Positions 988 through 9,708 of a DNA stretch of 38,634 nucleotides are shown here, in pieces. The stretch is from the IMG/VR virus record IMGVR_UViG_3300027777_000071, positions 1 through 38,634 of that record; one strand, 5' to 3'. A program made the translations under genes and the position numbers. This DNA is from a virus. Position 1 is the stretch's first letter; each line of letters starts with the position of its first letter. A model generated the notes under the pieces. It saw only the letters and a program-made list of their open reading frames with translations. It was not told where the DNA came from and did not search any database.

Positions 988-1001
988 AGGGGTAGGACAT
1001 G
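986..1001 (+). repeat. 16-bp direct repeat, copy 2
   Basis: This copy is identical to 219-234. It contains a TAG at 992-994 that terminates neither neighbouring gene (the PAPS-like gene stops at 985-987), so it looks like a leftover of the polymerase stop codon. The copy supplies the ribosome binding site and ATG of the primase-helicase gene. Confidence 0.9.
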
Positions 1002-3332
1002 CAAGAGCAACAATTTATCGACTACATCGTGGGGCTCGCACCAGAGGGCGAGACGGCGCTGCTGGTGCGCCAAAAGCCCGTCATGCGGGGTAATGAGCAG
1101 CAGACGTTTTTGGATGGTTCGTTGAAGTACACTTGGCCTGCCTACATGCCCATCAAGCCCCGCAAGGCTGACGAGGCGTGGTATCTCAATACCGGCTCGT
1201 TCATGACCGCGCGGTTCCTTGACGGCAAGCCCAGCGCCAGCGCCGCCAACTGCGACTACGTTCTTGCCATGATGCTGGATGACATTGGCACCAAGTCCAA
1301 GATCCCGCCCCTGCCGCCGACTTGGATCATGGAGACCAGCGAAGGGTCGTTCCAGTGGGGTTACGGTTTCAGCGACCAGCCGTCCAAAGGTGAGTTCAGC
1401 GCGGCCATCACCGCCATTGCCGTGGCGGGCTACACGGACCCCGGCGCAACCAATCCAGTACGTAATTTCCGCATTCCTGGATCAGTCAATCTGAAGCCGG
1501 GGCGCGCTGCTTTCCGGGCGCGTCTGATCGAGTTCCACCCTGATCGCGAGTACACGCTGCCGCAGATCTGCGAGGCGCTGGAGGTGACGCCAGCGGAGGC
1601 GGACACCGCGCGTAACTTGAATTTCAAACTGCGCGACACCGGCATGGACACCGTGCTGGAGTGGTTGAACGACAAGGGTCTGGTGCTGTCCAACGTCAAC
1701 GGTGAAGGCTGGATGGGCATCGTGTGCCCCAACCATGCACAGCATTCAGACGGCCAGATCGGAGCCCGCTACAAGCCTCTGGATCGCTCGTTCTGTTGCT
1801 ACCACGGCCACTGCGAGGGCTTCAACACGCAGGCGTTTCTGACGTGGGTGCATGACAACGGCGGCCCGCGCGTCTCGCTGGGTCTGCGCGACGAGTTGCT
1901 GGCGCAGCATATGCAGTCCACGCTGTCCAAGTTGTCGCCCACAGAGGCGTTCCCTGACGAGGCTGCGCGCATCATCGCCGAGGTGGATCGCAAGGAAGTC
2001 GGGCGCGTTGACAAGGCGGGCTGGTACGAGCGGTTCGCCTACGTCATCGAAGACGACGCCTATTTCGATCTGGACGCCCGCACCGAGTTGAGCCGGGGCT
2101 CGTTCAACGCCATCTTTCGCCACGTCAACTGCAAGTCGATCCATATGAGCGGCAAGAGCGCCCGCAGGATCGAGGCCAGCGTCTGCTATGACGAGAATCG
2201 CGCCGCCGCCAACGCCAGGCTGTTGCGCGGCATTACCTACGCTGCCGGTGACGGCGTCCTCGTCTCGCGCGACGGCGACGTGTACGGCAACCGCTGGCGC
2301 GACGCGCGGCCCGATCTGACCGGCGTGGCTCCCGGCGACGTGTCGCGTTGGCTCGACCACTGCCGGGCGCTGGTGCCAGAGGAGGCCGAGTTGACGCATT
2401 GCCTCGACGTGATGGCCTACAAGCTCCAGAACCCTCGCGTCAAGATCAACCACGCGGTGCTGCACGGCGGCGACGAGGGGTCCGGCAAGGATACGATGTG
2501 GGCGCCCTTCATTTGGGCAGTGTGCGGCCCAGGTCTCAAGAACCGGGGTCTGGTGGACAACGACGGGCTCAACTCGCAGTGGGGTTACGCGCTGGAGAGC
2601 GAGATCCTGATCTTGAACGAGTTGAAGGAACCGGAGGCGTCGCAGCGCCGCGCGCTTGCCAACAAGCTCAAGCCCATCATCGCCGCCCCACCGGAGACGC
2701 TGCCGATCAACCGCAAGGGCTTGCATCCTTACGACATGGTGAACCGCATGATGGTGCTGGCGTTCACGAACGATCCCGTCCCGATCTCGATCTCGTCTGG
2801 CGACCGCCGCTGGTTCTGCGTTTGGTCGTCCGCCGGGCGCATGGACCCAAGCGCAGCGCAGGACATGTGGCGCTGGTACCGCGCGGGCGGTTTTGAGACC
2901 ATTGCCCGGTGGCTGGCTGACCGCGACGTGTCCAAGTTCAACCCGTCTGCGCCGCCCATGTGGACCGAGTTCAAGGAGAACCTGATCGAGAACGGCATGA
3001 GCATGGCGGAGAGTTTCATCCTCACGCAGATACGCGCCAGAACGGACGAGTTCAGGCGCGGCATCATCGCCACGCCCTTCTACGGCATCTGCGACCGCCT
3101 GATGGCGGCTGGCCCCGCAGGCGTCAAGATCCCGCCGTCTGCGCTGCTCCACGCCCTCAAGGAGGCCAAATGGATCGACCGGGGGCGCGTGGCGTCTGTG
3201 GAGCATCCCAGCAGGCGGCATGTGTTCGTCGCGCCTGAATACGCCAAGGAGCGCAAATCTGTGCTGCGGAACATGCTGGAGTCTACTGGCGAGAGCGGCA
3301 AAGTGATCGACTTCCCCGGTCGCACAGCCTAA
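999..3332 (+). CDS. Primase-helicase (AEP-type primase, zinc motif, SF3-like helicase, DUF5906)
   Basis: The 777-residue protein combines replication activities. The N-terminal part has the archaeo-eukaryotic primase acidic motif 'MMLDDIGTK' (Asp94-Asp95) and the later 'RIPGSVNLKP' (from Arg158) typical of RepB/NrS-1-like primases. Residues 243-272 hold a Cys/His cluster (CPNH ... CCYHGHC) that probably binds zinc. The C-terminal half has Walker A 'GGDEGSGKDT' (about 490-499), Walker B-like 'ILILNELKE' (about 536-544) and 'MVLAFTNDPVPI', matching the DUF5906 / virulence-associated-E-like helicase group. It would prime and unwind for the phage polymerase encoded just upstream. The ATG lies in a GAAGGGGTAGGACATG initiation cassette. 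The gene is GC-rich, and long reading frames on its other strand are shadows. Confidence 0.9.
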   Translation: MQEQQFIDYIVGLAPEGETALLVRQKPVMRGNEQQTFLDGSLKYTWPAYMPIKPRKADEAWYLNTGSFMTARFLDGKPSASAANCDYVLAMMLDDIGTKSKIPPLPPTWIMETSEGSFQWGYGFSDQPSKGEFSAAITAIAVAGYTDPGATNPVRNFRIPGSVNLKPGRAAFRARLIEFHPDREYTLPQICEALEVTPAEADTARNLNFKLRDTGMDTVLEWLNDKGLVLSNVNGEGWMGIVCPNHAQHSDGQIGARYKPLDRSFCCYHGHCEGFNTQAFLTWVHDNGGPRVSLGLRDELLAQHMQSTLSKLSPTEAFPDEAARIIAEVDRKEVGRVDKAGWYERFAYVIEDDAYFDLDARTELSRGSFNAIFRHVNCKSIHMSGKSARRIEASVCYDENRAAANARLLRGITYAAGDGVLVSRDGDVYGNRWRDARPDLTGVAPGDVSRWLDHCRALVPEEAELTHCLDVMAYKLQNPRVKINHAVLHGGDEGSGKDTMWAPFIWAVCGPGLKNRGLVDNDGLNSQWGYALESEILILNELKEPEASQRRALANKLKPIIAAPPETLPINRKGLHPYDMVNRMMVLAFTNDPVPISISSGDRRWFCVWSSAGRMDPSAAQDMWRWYRAGGFETIARWLADRDVSKFNPSAPPMWTEFKENLIENGMSMAESFILTQIRARTDEFRRGIIATPFYGICDRLMAAGPAGVKIPPSALLHALKEAKWIDRGRVASVEHPSRRHVFVAPEYAKERKSVLRNMLESTGESGKVIDFPGRTA

Positions 3333-6067: not shown

Positions 6068-6330
6068 GACTGGGGCTCCGTTAGCTCGCGCACGGCCAGT
6101 TCGAAGTAGCCCGCGCCGTCCTGCCAGTGGTCCACAAAACCAGGGTCGCCGCACAGAATGCGCGCCATCTTGTCAGCGATCACCTCCAGCGCCTGCGCCT
6201 GCGTCACGTCCAGCCGATCCCAATTGCGCGAGGTTCGCATCAACCGTTTGATAGTTTGCGAGTAGTCCGCCATTTCGCGAAACAGCCCATGGGTCTGCTC
6301 GCGGTCGGATAGGATCTGGTCAGTGTTCAT
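6064..6330 (-). CDS. DUF6378-like small phage protein
   Basis: The 88-residue product starts at 6330 after AAAGGAAAGCAA. The pattern 'REQTHGLFREMADYSQTIKRLMRTSRNWDRL', then 'QAQALEVIADKMARILCGDP' and 'DHWQDGAGYFELAVREL', is that of the DUF6378 family common in phages. The protein is all-helical and its function is unknown. It overlaps the downstream gene by ATGA and the upstream DnaA-like gene by 4 nt, so it belongs to the coupled leftward operon. Confidence 0.82.
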   Translation of the reverse strand: MNTDQILSDREQTHGLFREMADYSQTIKRLMRTSRNWDRLDVTQAQALEVIADKMARILCGDPGFVDHWQDGAGYFELAVRELTEPQS

Positions 6331-6758
6331 TTGCTTTCCTTTCTTGCGTGGTAGCGTTGGACGCTGGTGATGATGGTGGTGTGGTCGCGCCCGCCCATGA
6401 GCGCGCCAATGCGAGGATAGGACCATCCACGCTCGCGCAGCAAGACGTAGATCTCCGCGCGGGTGTTGGCGTGGACGTGGGCGTTGCTGCGGGCGTTGGC
6501 CTGCGCCCAAGTCATCCCAAGCCGGTCCAACACTGCGGCGATGGCCCGCTTGGTGTCGGGCGAGCATGTGACGCCCGGTAGCGGGTCGGGCGGCGGTGGT
6601 GGTGGTGGCGGCGGCAACGGCAACGGCAACGGCGGTGGCGGTGGCGGTGCGGGCGGTGCGGGCGGTGCGGTGAAGGTTAGGCGAGGCGGCGCGCGCCCGT
6701 CCAGCCTAGCGCGCACGTCCTTGTAATGTTGCACGAGGGCGCTAACGTAATCCATCAT
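6327..6758 (-). CDS. Pro-rich protein with DnaA domain IV-like DNA-binding C-terminus
   Basis: The 143-residue product has three parts. There is a short helical N-terminus (1-25), a proline-rich linker (about 29-62, long runs of Pro with a few Leu and Ala), and a C-terminal region (about 65-143). The last contains 'GWSYPRIGALMGGRDHTTI', which resembles the DnaA domain IV signature; Asp125-His126-Thr127-Thr128 corresponds to the residues that in DnaA read the CACA/TGTG half of its box. There is no AAA+ ATPase domain. The start at 6758 overlaps the upstream stop by ATGA, with GGAG upstream. It is likely a sequence-specific DNA-binding protein for replication or regulation; a binding target in the 8646-9258 region is inference. 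The proline run would require EF-P for efficient translation. Confidence 0.78.
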   Translation of the reverse strand: MMDYVSALVQHYKDVRARLDGRAPPRLTFTAPPAPPAPPPPPPLPLPLPPPPPPPPPDPLPGVTCSPDTKRAIAAVLDRLGMTWAQANARSNAHVHANTRAEIYVLLRERGWSYPRIGALMGGRDHTTIITSVQRYHARKESK

Positions 6759-6949
6759 GGGACCATCTCCATCAGCCAAGCGCGCGCGTCGCGCTCGTTT
6801 GCAACATATCCCAGCGCGCCTAGGACGCTCACGCAGCGCCAGGCGCGTGAGCCGGTGCGCTTGTAACGCACGGGGCCGTAGTGGCCCAGCAAGCGCCCGT
6901 AGTAGGACACGGTGCGCGTGCGGTCGTCGTGTATTTCGGTTGTGATCAT
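6755..6949 (-). CDS. Small phage protein of unknown function
   Basis: The 64-residue product starts at 6949 after CGGAGAGCGTGAC. It is basic, with strands suggested by 'RTRTVSYYGRLLGHYGPVRYKR' and a helical end ('NERDARAWLMEM'). No family recognised. It is one base downstream of the previous gene's stop and overlaps the DnaA-like gene by ATGA, so the two are probably co-translated. Confidence 0.68.
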   Translation of the reverse strand: MITTEIHDDRTRTVSYYGRLLGHYGPVRYKRTGSRAWRCVSVLGALGYVANERDARAWLMEMVP

Positions 6950-7868: not shown

Positions 7869-8645
7869 TCACGCGTTAGCGAAGCGCCGCGCCGTTGCGC
7901 CGTGGGCGTTGATGACCATCGAAGCCTTGGCCTTTGCGCCAGTCCCGCCGCAAGCGCGGCAATCGGCGCAAGTTGTCTTGGCGCCAGCCTCTTTCGACGC
8001 GGGACACGTCGCCTCGCCAGCAAGGCGAGGCGCGTCTGGCGTCTTGACGCGGAACGTGCGCCAGCCCATGGCGTGGGCGGCCGCGTGGTCGGCTTCGCTA
8101 TCGGTGCTCGCCATGCAAAGCAACTTAAACGCGGCGAATTTCTTGTTTCGCCATTGATGCGAGTAACCATTGATTGCGCTGGCGTTGACGGTAGCACGAC
8201 GCCAAGTTTGGAACGGTGCTGCCGTGGGATCGCCATATGTCCCGATCCGAAACGCCAGAGCGGCGAACAACGCGGGGATGATGCGCGCGTCAAAATCGAC
8301 GCCAGCGCGCGCGTATCCCCCACGTTTGAATGCGCCATACACTGACATGACGGATCGCCCAACGTTGACATAGCAAGAACCGTTGTTCGCAGGGCGATGT
8401 TGGCAATCGCCGCAAACGCTAGCATCGAAACCGGTCTTAAGCGCGCTCAACGGATCGATGTCAGATCGAATAATGAAAGTCTGAACCATTGCGCCAGTCT
8501 TGGCGTTCGTGCTCGCCGCAGTAATGCGATTCGCGATTACGACAATCGGCGCGCCATCAAGCGCGCTTGCGCCTTCATATAATATCACGCCGGTGAATTT
8601 TGCGCGCTTGAGCGCCTTAAGCATGTCTTGAGCCGTCTTAATCAT
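7869..8645 (-). CDS. DUF7227-like phage protein with cysteine clusters
   Basis: The 258-residue product is the first gene of the leftward operon. 'VILYEGASALDGAPIVVIA', 'NAKTGAMVQTFIIRSD', 'VCGDCQHR' (Cys78, Cys81) and 'CYVNVG' (Cys91) match a protein family common in tailed phages and plasmids and annotated DUF7227 or hypothetical. A second cluster 'CPASKEAGAKTTCADCRACGG' near the C-terminus looks like a zinc ribbon. A nucleic-acid-associated role is plausible but unproven. The start at 8645 is preceded by AAAGG. Because it is promoter-proximal, it is probably made early. Confidence 0.8.
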   Translation of the reverse strand: MIKTAQDMLKALKRAKFTGVILYEGASALDGAPIVVIANRITAASTNAKTGAMVQTFIIRSDIDPLSALKTGFDASVCGDCQHRPANNGSCYVNVGRSVMSVYGAFKRGGYARAGVDFDARIIPALFAALAFRIGTYGDPTAAPFQTWRRATVNASAINGYSHQWRNKKFAAFKLLCMASTDSEADHAAAHAMGWRTFRVKTPDAPRLAGEATCPASKEAGAKTTCADCRACGGTGAKAKASMVINAHGATARRFANA

Positions 8646-8663
8646 TTTGTGTGCCTTTCGCGT

Positions 8664-8685
8664 TCGGCGCTCTGATCGGCGCTCT
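8664..8685. repeat. 10-bp direct repeat TCGGCGCTCT, twice
   Basis: Two copies, 8664-8673 and 8676-8685, lie 12 bp apart (about one helical turn) just downstream of the predicted leftward promoter's -10 element. They would fall at about +1 to +25 of the transcript, a position typical of repressor operators. Confidence 0.55.
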
Positions 8686-8692
8686 ATAAATC

Positions 8693-8720
8693 AATGTAAA
8701 CGATTTTCGAGCATGGTCAA
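8693..8720 (-). promoter_or_regulatory. Predicted leftward promoter of the small-gene operon
   Basis: On the lower strand TTGACC (8720-8715, five of six matches to -35) is followed after 16 bp by TACATT (8698-8693, four of six matches to -10). The first gene's ATG is at 8645. It is the best sigma70-like pair found upstream of the leftward operon. Confidence 0.5.
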
Positions 8721-9002
8721 CGGAAAAATGCGAAATTGCAGAAAAAATTGATTAGAAAAAGCGCCAGCGTCGCCAAGGTGAAAATGGGGCGAAACGCGGG
8801 GATTGTCAGGGATTTTAAGGCGAAATTGCATTTATATACACCTCTACTGTATTTAAATGGAAAAACTTAATAATTATACATATATAGAATGTAGGATAGA
8901 CTGACACGTTTGGCGAACGACTTAAACCTAGTGTGCAATTAGGACAATCGTGCAATTTCGCCCACGACGCCCCCACGCACTCTGGCGAGCGCACACTGCA
9001 GG

Positions 9003-9097
9003 GTGACATGCTCGCCATGTGCTCATTTGTGCAATCGCCCCCAAGGCGCGATGCATGGCGTGACATGCTCGCCATGTGCTCATTTGTGCAATCGCCC
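9003..9097 (+). repeat. 38-bp direct repeat, two copies, each with a dyad
   Basis: Positions 9003-9040 and 9060-9097 are identical over 38 bases, separated by 19 bp (period 57 bp). Each copy contains ACATG-CTCGC-CATGT, a 5-bp inverted repeat around a 5-bp spacer, and ends in TGTGCAATCGCCC. Protein-binding sites are the simplest explanation. Confidence 0.9.
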
Positions 9098-9110
9098 GTT
9101 GCCCCTGCCC

Positions 9111-9155
9111 TATTGCCTAGGTCATGTAGCTATTGCCTAGGTCATGTAGCTATTG
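9111..9155 (+). repeat. 20-bp tandem repeat, 2.25 copies
   Basis: The unit TATTGCCTAGGTCATGTAGC occurs at 9111-9130 and 9131-9150, followed by a partial TATTG. The unit contains the palindrome CCTAGG. It lies about 110 bp before the terminase small subunit gene, where packaging recognition sites are often found. Confidence 0.9.
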
Positions 9156-9258
9156 TTCTGTTTATGTTTGGAGGGGGGGTAGGGCCTGCTGCCGCCCGGT
9201 CACGGTCACGGAGGGTCCGCAAAAAATTTTATTTTTTTTACCAAATTCATGGTGTAGA

Positions 9259-9708
9259 ATGCTTTACATGACCTGGCACACGCTCCCCCACGAACCGCGC
9301 AAACTTCAAGCGACTGAGGCGCGATTGAACGCAATTTATCACGCCGCGCGTCACGGCTTGAAAGGCGACACGCTGGCGTTGGCTGCGGGTATGCAGCCGG
9401 TCGAGTACCGCCAATTATGCCAATTTGACCCATTGGCGGAGATGGCGGAACAGAAGGGCCGCGCGGACGGCGAGATGGAGATCTCGGCGCAACTGCACGA
9501 GGCGGCGCGAGCGGGCGACGCCAAGGCGGCGTTGGCGATCTTGCAGCACACGCATGGCTGGACGGCCAAGCAAGAGATTACCATTGACGTTTACCAGAAG
9601 ATCAGCATTACTCAGGCGCTGGCGGACGCTCAGTCGCGCTTGATCGAGCATGACCCTGCTGAGCCGATCAACCGGGAACTGATGTATGGCGCAACTGCCG
9701 ATCTATAA
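9259..9708 (+). CDS. terS: Putative terminase small subunit
   Basis: The 149-residue product lies directly before and overlaps the terminase large subunit gene by 23 bp. The pattern 'HGLKGDTLALAAGMQPVEYRQL' suggests an HTH in the N-terminal half. The later helical stretch 'ISAQLHEAARAGDAKAALAIL' and 'HGWTAKQEI' are typical of phage small terminases ('A..GD..A...L'). It would recognise the packaging site, probably near the repeats just upstream. The start is uncertain: ATG 9259 or ATG 9268, neither with a strong ribosome binding site. Upstream in-frame extension to 9133 runs through repeats and is not protein-like. Confidence 0.75.
   Translation: MLYMTWHTLPHEPRKLQATEARLNAIYHAARHGLKGDTLALAAGMQPVEYRQLCQFDPLAEMAEQKGRADGEMEISAQLHEAARAGDAKAALAILQHTHGWTAKQEITIDVYQKISITQALADAQSRLIEHDPAEPINRELMYGATADL

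Follow-up and report, generated by a model that had tools for sequence, protein, structure and literature searches.

What does a virus use a repeated six-base word for, when copies on both strands face away from an AT-rich centre between two divergent genes? The DNA analysed (hereafter the window) is the whole of one virus record, 38,634 bases long, in which homologues of terminase (terL), portal and major capsid genes were found. A PolA-type polymerase gene is split over the record ends (window 38632 / 1), exiting at one end and re-entering at the other, and its pieces are separated by ~ 540 nt in most relatives, suggesting that the record is near-complete and not closed. The closest relatives were uncultivated IMG/VR phages and MW202483, with DSL-LC05 for the terminase, while matches in bacterial assemblies were short contigs in metagenome bins. 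The locus in question is the following:

8646–9267, no strand assigned: divergent intergenic region, proposed origin; the leftward gene starts at 8645 and the probable ATG of terS lies at ~ 9268

The original prediction described six TGCAAT boxes in this intergenic, divergently transcribed region, and inspection of the sequence confirmed them at 8735 and 8825 on the minus strand and at 8934, 8951, 9030 and 9087 on the plus strand. The two left boxes face left and the four right boxes face right, as proposed, and the AT-rich core is real (78–80% AT in 40-nt windows at 8840 and 8860). The list of boxes was correct as far as it went, but it had missed GGACAAT at 8942 (plus strand), TGACAAT at 8802 (minus strand), a 38-nt direct repeat at 9003/9060 (9003–9040 and 9060–9097) carrying two of the TGCAAT boxes, and a 20-nt tandem repeat at 9110–9155. 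The array therefore comprises these elements, with distances measured from the core centre at 8866:

8735–8741, minus strand: iteron CTGCAAT, left distal, at -128 (family module -135 to -95)
8802–8808, minus strand: near-iteron TGACAAT, left, at -61; the word is the commonest box of relatives
8825–8831, minus strand: iteron ATGCAAT, left proximal, at -38 (family module -45 to -20)
8831–8890, no strand assigned: AT-rich core that includes TATATA and may act as a DNA unwinding element (78–80% AT in 40-nt windows)
8933–8939, plus strand: iteron GTGCAAT, first of the right proximal triplet, at +70 (module +60 to +105)
8942–8948, plus strand: near-iteron GGACAAT, second of the triplet, spaced 9 and 8 nt from its neighbours (family tandem spacing 8–11)
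8950–8956, plus strand: iteron GTGCAAT, third of the triplet, at +87
9029–9035, plus strand: iteron GTGCAAT, right middle, at +166, in copy 1 of the 38-nt repeat (module +135 to +180)
9086–9092, plus strand: iteron GTGCAAT, right distal, at +223, in copy 2 of the 38-nt repeat (module +210 to +255)

All four right-hand boxes read GTGCAAT. With six boxes and two near-boxes, the array is modest compared with the 8–15 boxes of many relatives.

Two further elements lie to the right of the iterons. The 20-nt tandem repeat, CTATTGCCTAGGTCATGTAG, is present in 2.3 copies (9110–9155), and AGGCAAT lies within its units, on the minus strand. Beyond it, the right end of the intergenic region holds a conserved, packaging-site-like G-rich element, GGAGGGGGGGTAGGGCC...GGTCACGGTCACGGAGGGTCCGCAAAAAATTTT, at 9168–9240 directly upstream of terS. 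This candidate cos/pac site is kept where the iterons change, and a strict pattern recovered it in 52 of the 149 listed loci, and shuffled loci gave no match.

The original prediction would have been weakened by a similar density of TGCAAT elsewhere in the genome. Six of the 19 copies in the 38.6 kb record fall within 358 nt; the remaining genome would predict ~ 0.45 per 1.3 kb, and the total of 19 is itself lower than the 29.5 that shuffled sequences average. When every hexamer was scanned, 15 words reached at least six copies in 358 nt, among which TGCAAT was the only one not common genome-wide (19 copies versus 44–152). Two words in the window displayed a perfect left/right partition, against none in 40 shuffles, and TGCAAT came first for outward arrangement when the 5.7 kb upstream of terL were scanned blind. 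The description of the region as the only repeat-dense stretch in the window holds broadly; other tandem repeats do exist, as low-complexity stretches within ORFs.

Comparison with relatives was based on 149 distinct IMG/VR loci among the matches listed, each covering the upstream region of terS as well as the C-terminus of the primase-helicase. Roughly 150 listed relatives carry, upstream of terS, outward-facing boxes of 7–9 bp around a TATA-containing core, in words that differ by lineage (TGACAAT, TGACTACA, TGCCTACA, TGTCCACA, TGCCGAA, TGCTGACA and others). Even among relatives with 80–96% identical TerL, the repeats occupy the same place and the word is mostly different. The nearest relative covering the region (L003) retains six TGCAAT boxes in unchanged order and orientation. 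The expected conservation of the boxes was thus only partly realised: exact TGCAAT does not extend beyond a few near relatives (L003, L158), and what is conserved elsewhere is the layout, together with covariation between the word and its putative reader protein. A search for exact TGCAAT in relatives was discarded as misleading, because most of them have another word.

The layout itself could be quantified by computation. With orientation-agnostic words, left boxes pointed opposite to the right-hand majority in 231 cases and the same way in 50 (85/102 loci). In 50 non-redundant loci, boxes clustered at -135 to -95, -45 to -20, +60 to +105, +135 to +180 and +210 to +255 from the core, with a tandem spacing of 8–11 nt; inverted boxes were few and lay mainly around -90 and +135. 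The window is outside this set of 50, and its boxes at -128, -38, +70, +87, +166 and +223 fit the family modules. Cores of relatives averaged 81% AT versus 54% for the region, and TATA was present in 50/50, a count to be read with the fact that the core finder itself rewards TATA. In some cases (G004, G012, L163, L292) the orientation-agnostic search settled on long tandem arrays lying downstream of the origin, and it was redone with an outward criterion. These long arrays are lineage-specific features to the right of the origin, made of 7–10 nt units in at least 12 copies (G012/L137, G004/L094 and L292). No such array was seen in the stretches read of Vibrio phages with a 27%-identical primase-helicase.

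A candidate reader of the boxes is encoded near the left end of the window and is present in most searched records that cover its region:

999–3332, plus strand: primase / SF3 helicase, 777 aa, proposed iteron reader and initiator (PF19263; fold matches)
2955–3281, plus strand: predicted C-terminal winged-helix domain, residues 653–761 (AlphaFold2 model, core pLDDT ~ 90)
3192–3209, plus strand: wing codons A732–P737 (ASVEHP), in which x = A732, x+2 = V734 and x+5 = P737; x and x+5 have the top mutual information with box class in relatives

In fold searches, the full-length model matched the helicase region of NrS-1 polymerase (6K9C, E = 6.7e-15), SaPI PriRep1 bound to dsDNA (7PDS, E = 7.7e-8; also 7OLA) and the AEP domain 6ZP9, indicating an AEP primase fused to an SF3 helicase. 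The winged-helix model consists of helices followed by a hairpin (E74-79/E88-92 in fragment numbering). Sequence-profile searches with the C-terminal domain gave no meaningful match in PDB or Pfam and none to a known origin-binding domain; a fold search with the domain alone returned weak matches, mostly to winged-helix proteins, and the P4 alpha domain was not among the matches listed.

Across relatives, the wing is hypervariable and its sequence goes with the box word. Two wing positions ranked highest for box class out of ~ 350 aligned columns, with z = 11.4 at x and z = 8.2 at x+5; the third-ranked column reached ~ 5.6. Individual residue-base links were computed in the group of words fitting TG-N-C-N-A-N, with 44 distinct wing/word combinations; this frame fits 66 of 117 confident loci, the remaining ~ 44% using words that need another register, and both wing residues and box words were taken from script-made consensus sequences. 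Within this group, residue x corresponded to box base 5 (A to A in 18/19, K to C in 6/6, M to T in 8/8, D to G in 1/1), and R at x+2 to C at base 7 in 14/18. The links remained significant (p ≤ 0.0006) under permutation confined to clusters of proteins with similar bodies. Since the rules for positions 5 and 7 had been noticed before testing, these values measure association in this set and do not amount to a blind test. Held-out prediction of base 5 across protein clusters was correct in 28/35 (baseline 21) or 36/41 (baseline 21), and the wing of the window (ASVEHPS), which lay outside the test set, agrees with the expected xxxCAAT.

Changes of word are also visible between very similar proteins. 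In G017, G018 and G023 the protein bodies are 98% the same, but wing and word both differ. Natural swaps were found in L242 (wing MCREYTA, word TGACTACA), L299 (YSREYTT, TGCCTACA), L253 (KSREYDS, TGTCCACA) and G027/L245 (AS[TS]EYMN, TGACAAT), whose bodies are 95–97% and recognition-helix segments 97–100% identical between word classes. When the origins were aligned, the right-proximal repeats were found to be rewritten in concert at matching positions, with the flanks partly kept. Mapped onto a tree built from the protein body, word class shows at least 33 changes and wing residue x shows 25. Independent pairs on well-supported branches agreed in direction with the position-5 rules (4-0, 5-0 and 2-0), too few for formal significance, and the R rule scored 3-1. 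One identical wing, AARGLES, occurs with two words (GCTCACA and GGGTACA), an apparent exception; the genomes concerned mostly interleave both words, or the variant GGGCACA, so that this points to a compound array rather than to a contradiction. In L310–L320, the sequence to the right of the core mostly interleaves CGCTCACA with CGGGTACA or CGGGCACA, often 10 nt apart, alongside a single initiator wing, which suggests compound iterons.

Could the boxes have another function, or another reader? They might be operators of a transcription regulator at two divergent promoters, a repressor or stoperator-like system whose word diversity would mark immunity groups. The divergent intergenic setting suits this, immunity systems do diversify their operators, and the leftward operon of DSL-LC05 has a gene annotated as 'repressor protein C'. 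However, no other gene family of any kind, regulators included, occurs in the interval in more than 44 of the 148 listed loci, the word tracks the wing of the primase-helicase, and outward boxes on both sides of an AT core, spread over ~ 350 nt, are unusual for operators, all of which makes a regulatory array improbable. Less probable still is a role as DnaA-like boxes read by an initiator with DnaA domain IV. A small protein of this type is indeed encoded in the leftward operon (6327–6779, minus strand; PF08299 match above the gathering score, E = 9.1e-8, with a GGRDHTTI signature), MW202483 has an annotated relative of it, and TGTG beside CAAT may be reminiscent of the CACA with which a DnaA box ends. 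Nearly all loci have the array, whereas PF08299 was detected in 6 of 50 searched records and the gene family in 22 of the 148 listed loci, and this rarity led us to reject the protein as a universal reader. No exact copy of the DnaA box TTATNCACA was present in the window, and two one-mismatch matches in the AT core belong to a total below chance. The protein itself might assist replication as an accessory factor or compete with DnaA.

That terminase recognises the array as a pac/cos site is yet more doubtful. Its position directly beside terS, which follows immediately downstream, and the presence of a separate conserved G-rich element at ~ 9168–9240 speak for this reading, but the packaging-like element is a different stretch and stays unchanged as the boxes change. 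TerS is moreover 125–127/127 identical among close relatives that use four different box words, and this computed near-invariance in the close set excludes it as the box reader; against L240, whose word is the same as that of L245, the identity is 119–121/127. Finally, the repeats could be lineage-specific and lack any sequence-specific reader, in which case layout and covariation would both be artefacts of shared ancestry. Many of the relatives are closely related and the words were chosen post hoc, yet switches are seen among 95–98% identical proteins, within-cluster permutations remain significant, at least 33 word changes map onto the body tree, and the window, used for neither the rule nor the modules, fits both. 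We consider this the least probable of the four.

Outward iterons around a melting core, read as an origin in the original prediction, thus became the best reading once relatives were compared, given a layout shared by ~ 150 listed loci and a word that tracks the primase-helicase wing and not TerS or a regulator. Judged from sequence and models, the array is very probably a phage replication origin whose iterons are bound by the C-terminal winged helix of the primase-helicase, with initiator and iterons switching together. Covariation likewise suggests that the C-terminal domain of the helicase sets iteron specificity. GC skew, which was expected to have an extremum here, had no inflection or consistent sign change at the array in the window or in nine relatives; given no consistent sign change in 10 genomes, it lends the origin no support.

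Given the fold matches to the NrS-1 helicase region, SaPI PriRep1 and the AEP domain, we infer two-sided binding, core melting and bidirectional priming. The AEP-primase/SF3-helicase encoded at 999–3332 would bind the outward iterons (mostly GTGCAAT and variants) through its C-terminal winged helix, with wing residues 732–737 contacting the variable box bases. It would then assemble on both sides of the AT core (8831–8890) and melt it, so that bidirectional, self-primed theta replication could start at the melted core and the phage PolA-type polymerase could continue synthesis after self-priming. Across the wider clade, initiator and iterons would have switched jointly and repeatedly to new words, the layout being retained. 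It is likely, although with less certainty than for the origin itself, that these genomes form a large clade of uncultivated podovirus-like phages with PICI/P4-style iteron origins, in which a few wing residues set specificity and in which joint switches of the initiator and its full set of iterons have happened in place many times (at least 33 box-class changes on the protein-body tree). The corresponding natural code at position 5 would be roughly A/G to A, M/Y to T, K to C and D/E to G, with R to C at position 7.

Such origin arrangements are known from phage satellites and have been stated to be absent from other known bacterial replicons; here they occur in widespread full-size phages. 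The clade provides dozens of natural initiator-iteron pairs differing by a handful of residues and bases, which makes it testable how a winged helix picks its bases, and how a protein and at least ten scattered sites change specificity jointly while function is kept. Incompatibility between co-infecting phages is one candidate selective force; another is escape from nucleases that target origins, for example ICP1 Odn (PMC8263062). The clade may be regarded as a natural record of initiator and origin re-tuning to each other.

Among known systems, PICI/SaPI origins have an AT-rich melting region with a set of short iterons on either side (PMC6092414; PMC7581432; PDB 7PDS, 7OLA, 7OM0), and their Pri-Rep initiator combines an AEP primase with an SF3 helicase, recognises iterons through its C-terminal domain and is paired with iterons that differ between elements (PMC6092414; PMC7581432). 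Flanking iterons, AT core, AEP-SF3 protein and iteron variety are common to both, as C-terminal recognition, predicted for the phage, would be. The PICI/SaPI origin lies immediately 3' of rep, whereas in the phage ~ 5.4 kb separate the end of the primase-helicase (3332) from the array (8735), which sits by terS. PICIs are satellites without capsid genes of their own; the phage is full-size, and its terL, portal and capsid homologues set it apart from the PICIs, despite a putative origin of PICI-like type. Likeness between the phage protein and SaPI Rep is at the fold level only.

Phage-satellite P4 uses ori1 plus crr, and its iteron consensus differs from that of the phage. The P4 alpha protein is a primase-helicase acting with short iterons, and a comparable arrangement is predicted for the phage. 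The C-terminal origin-binding domain of P4 alpha is a winged helix, as cited in PMC10516667. NrS-1 PrimPol-helicase (PDB 6K9C, 6LRB; PMC7102993) is phage-encoded and the best structural match to the helicase part; it relies on two copies of an 8-nt recognition sequence and no iteron array (PMC7102993), and its tail domain has a different fold from that of C962R, whose tail is a winged helix similar to the P4 domain (PMC10516667). In RepA_N of the PLE satellite, as in the phage clade, the DNA-binding domain covaries with origin iterons and is swapped with them as a module, and cognate pairing was shown by experiment (PMC8263062, PMC7145576). RepA_N is, however, unrelated and without a predicted helicase, and two module types are exchanged there by recombination, versus many words in the phage clade. 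Comparative residue-base rules between protein and iterons were likewise drawn for the iteron-related domain of geminivirus Rep, to judge by a title cited in PMC12548392; those are plant ssDNA viruses with rolling-circle replication, and protein and mechanism are unrelated to those of the phage. Taken together, the array most likely belongs to a general kind already known, the PICI/P4-like one, here found in a new setting, and the comparative evidence for repeated joint switching is unusually clear.
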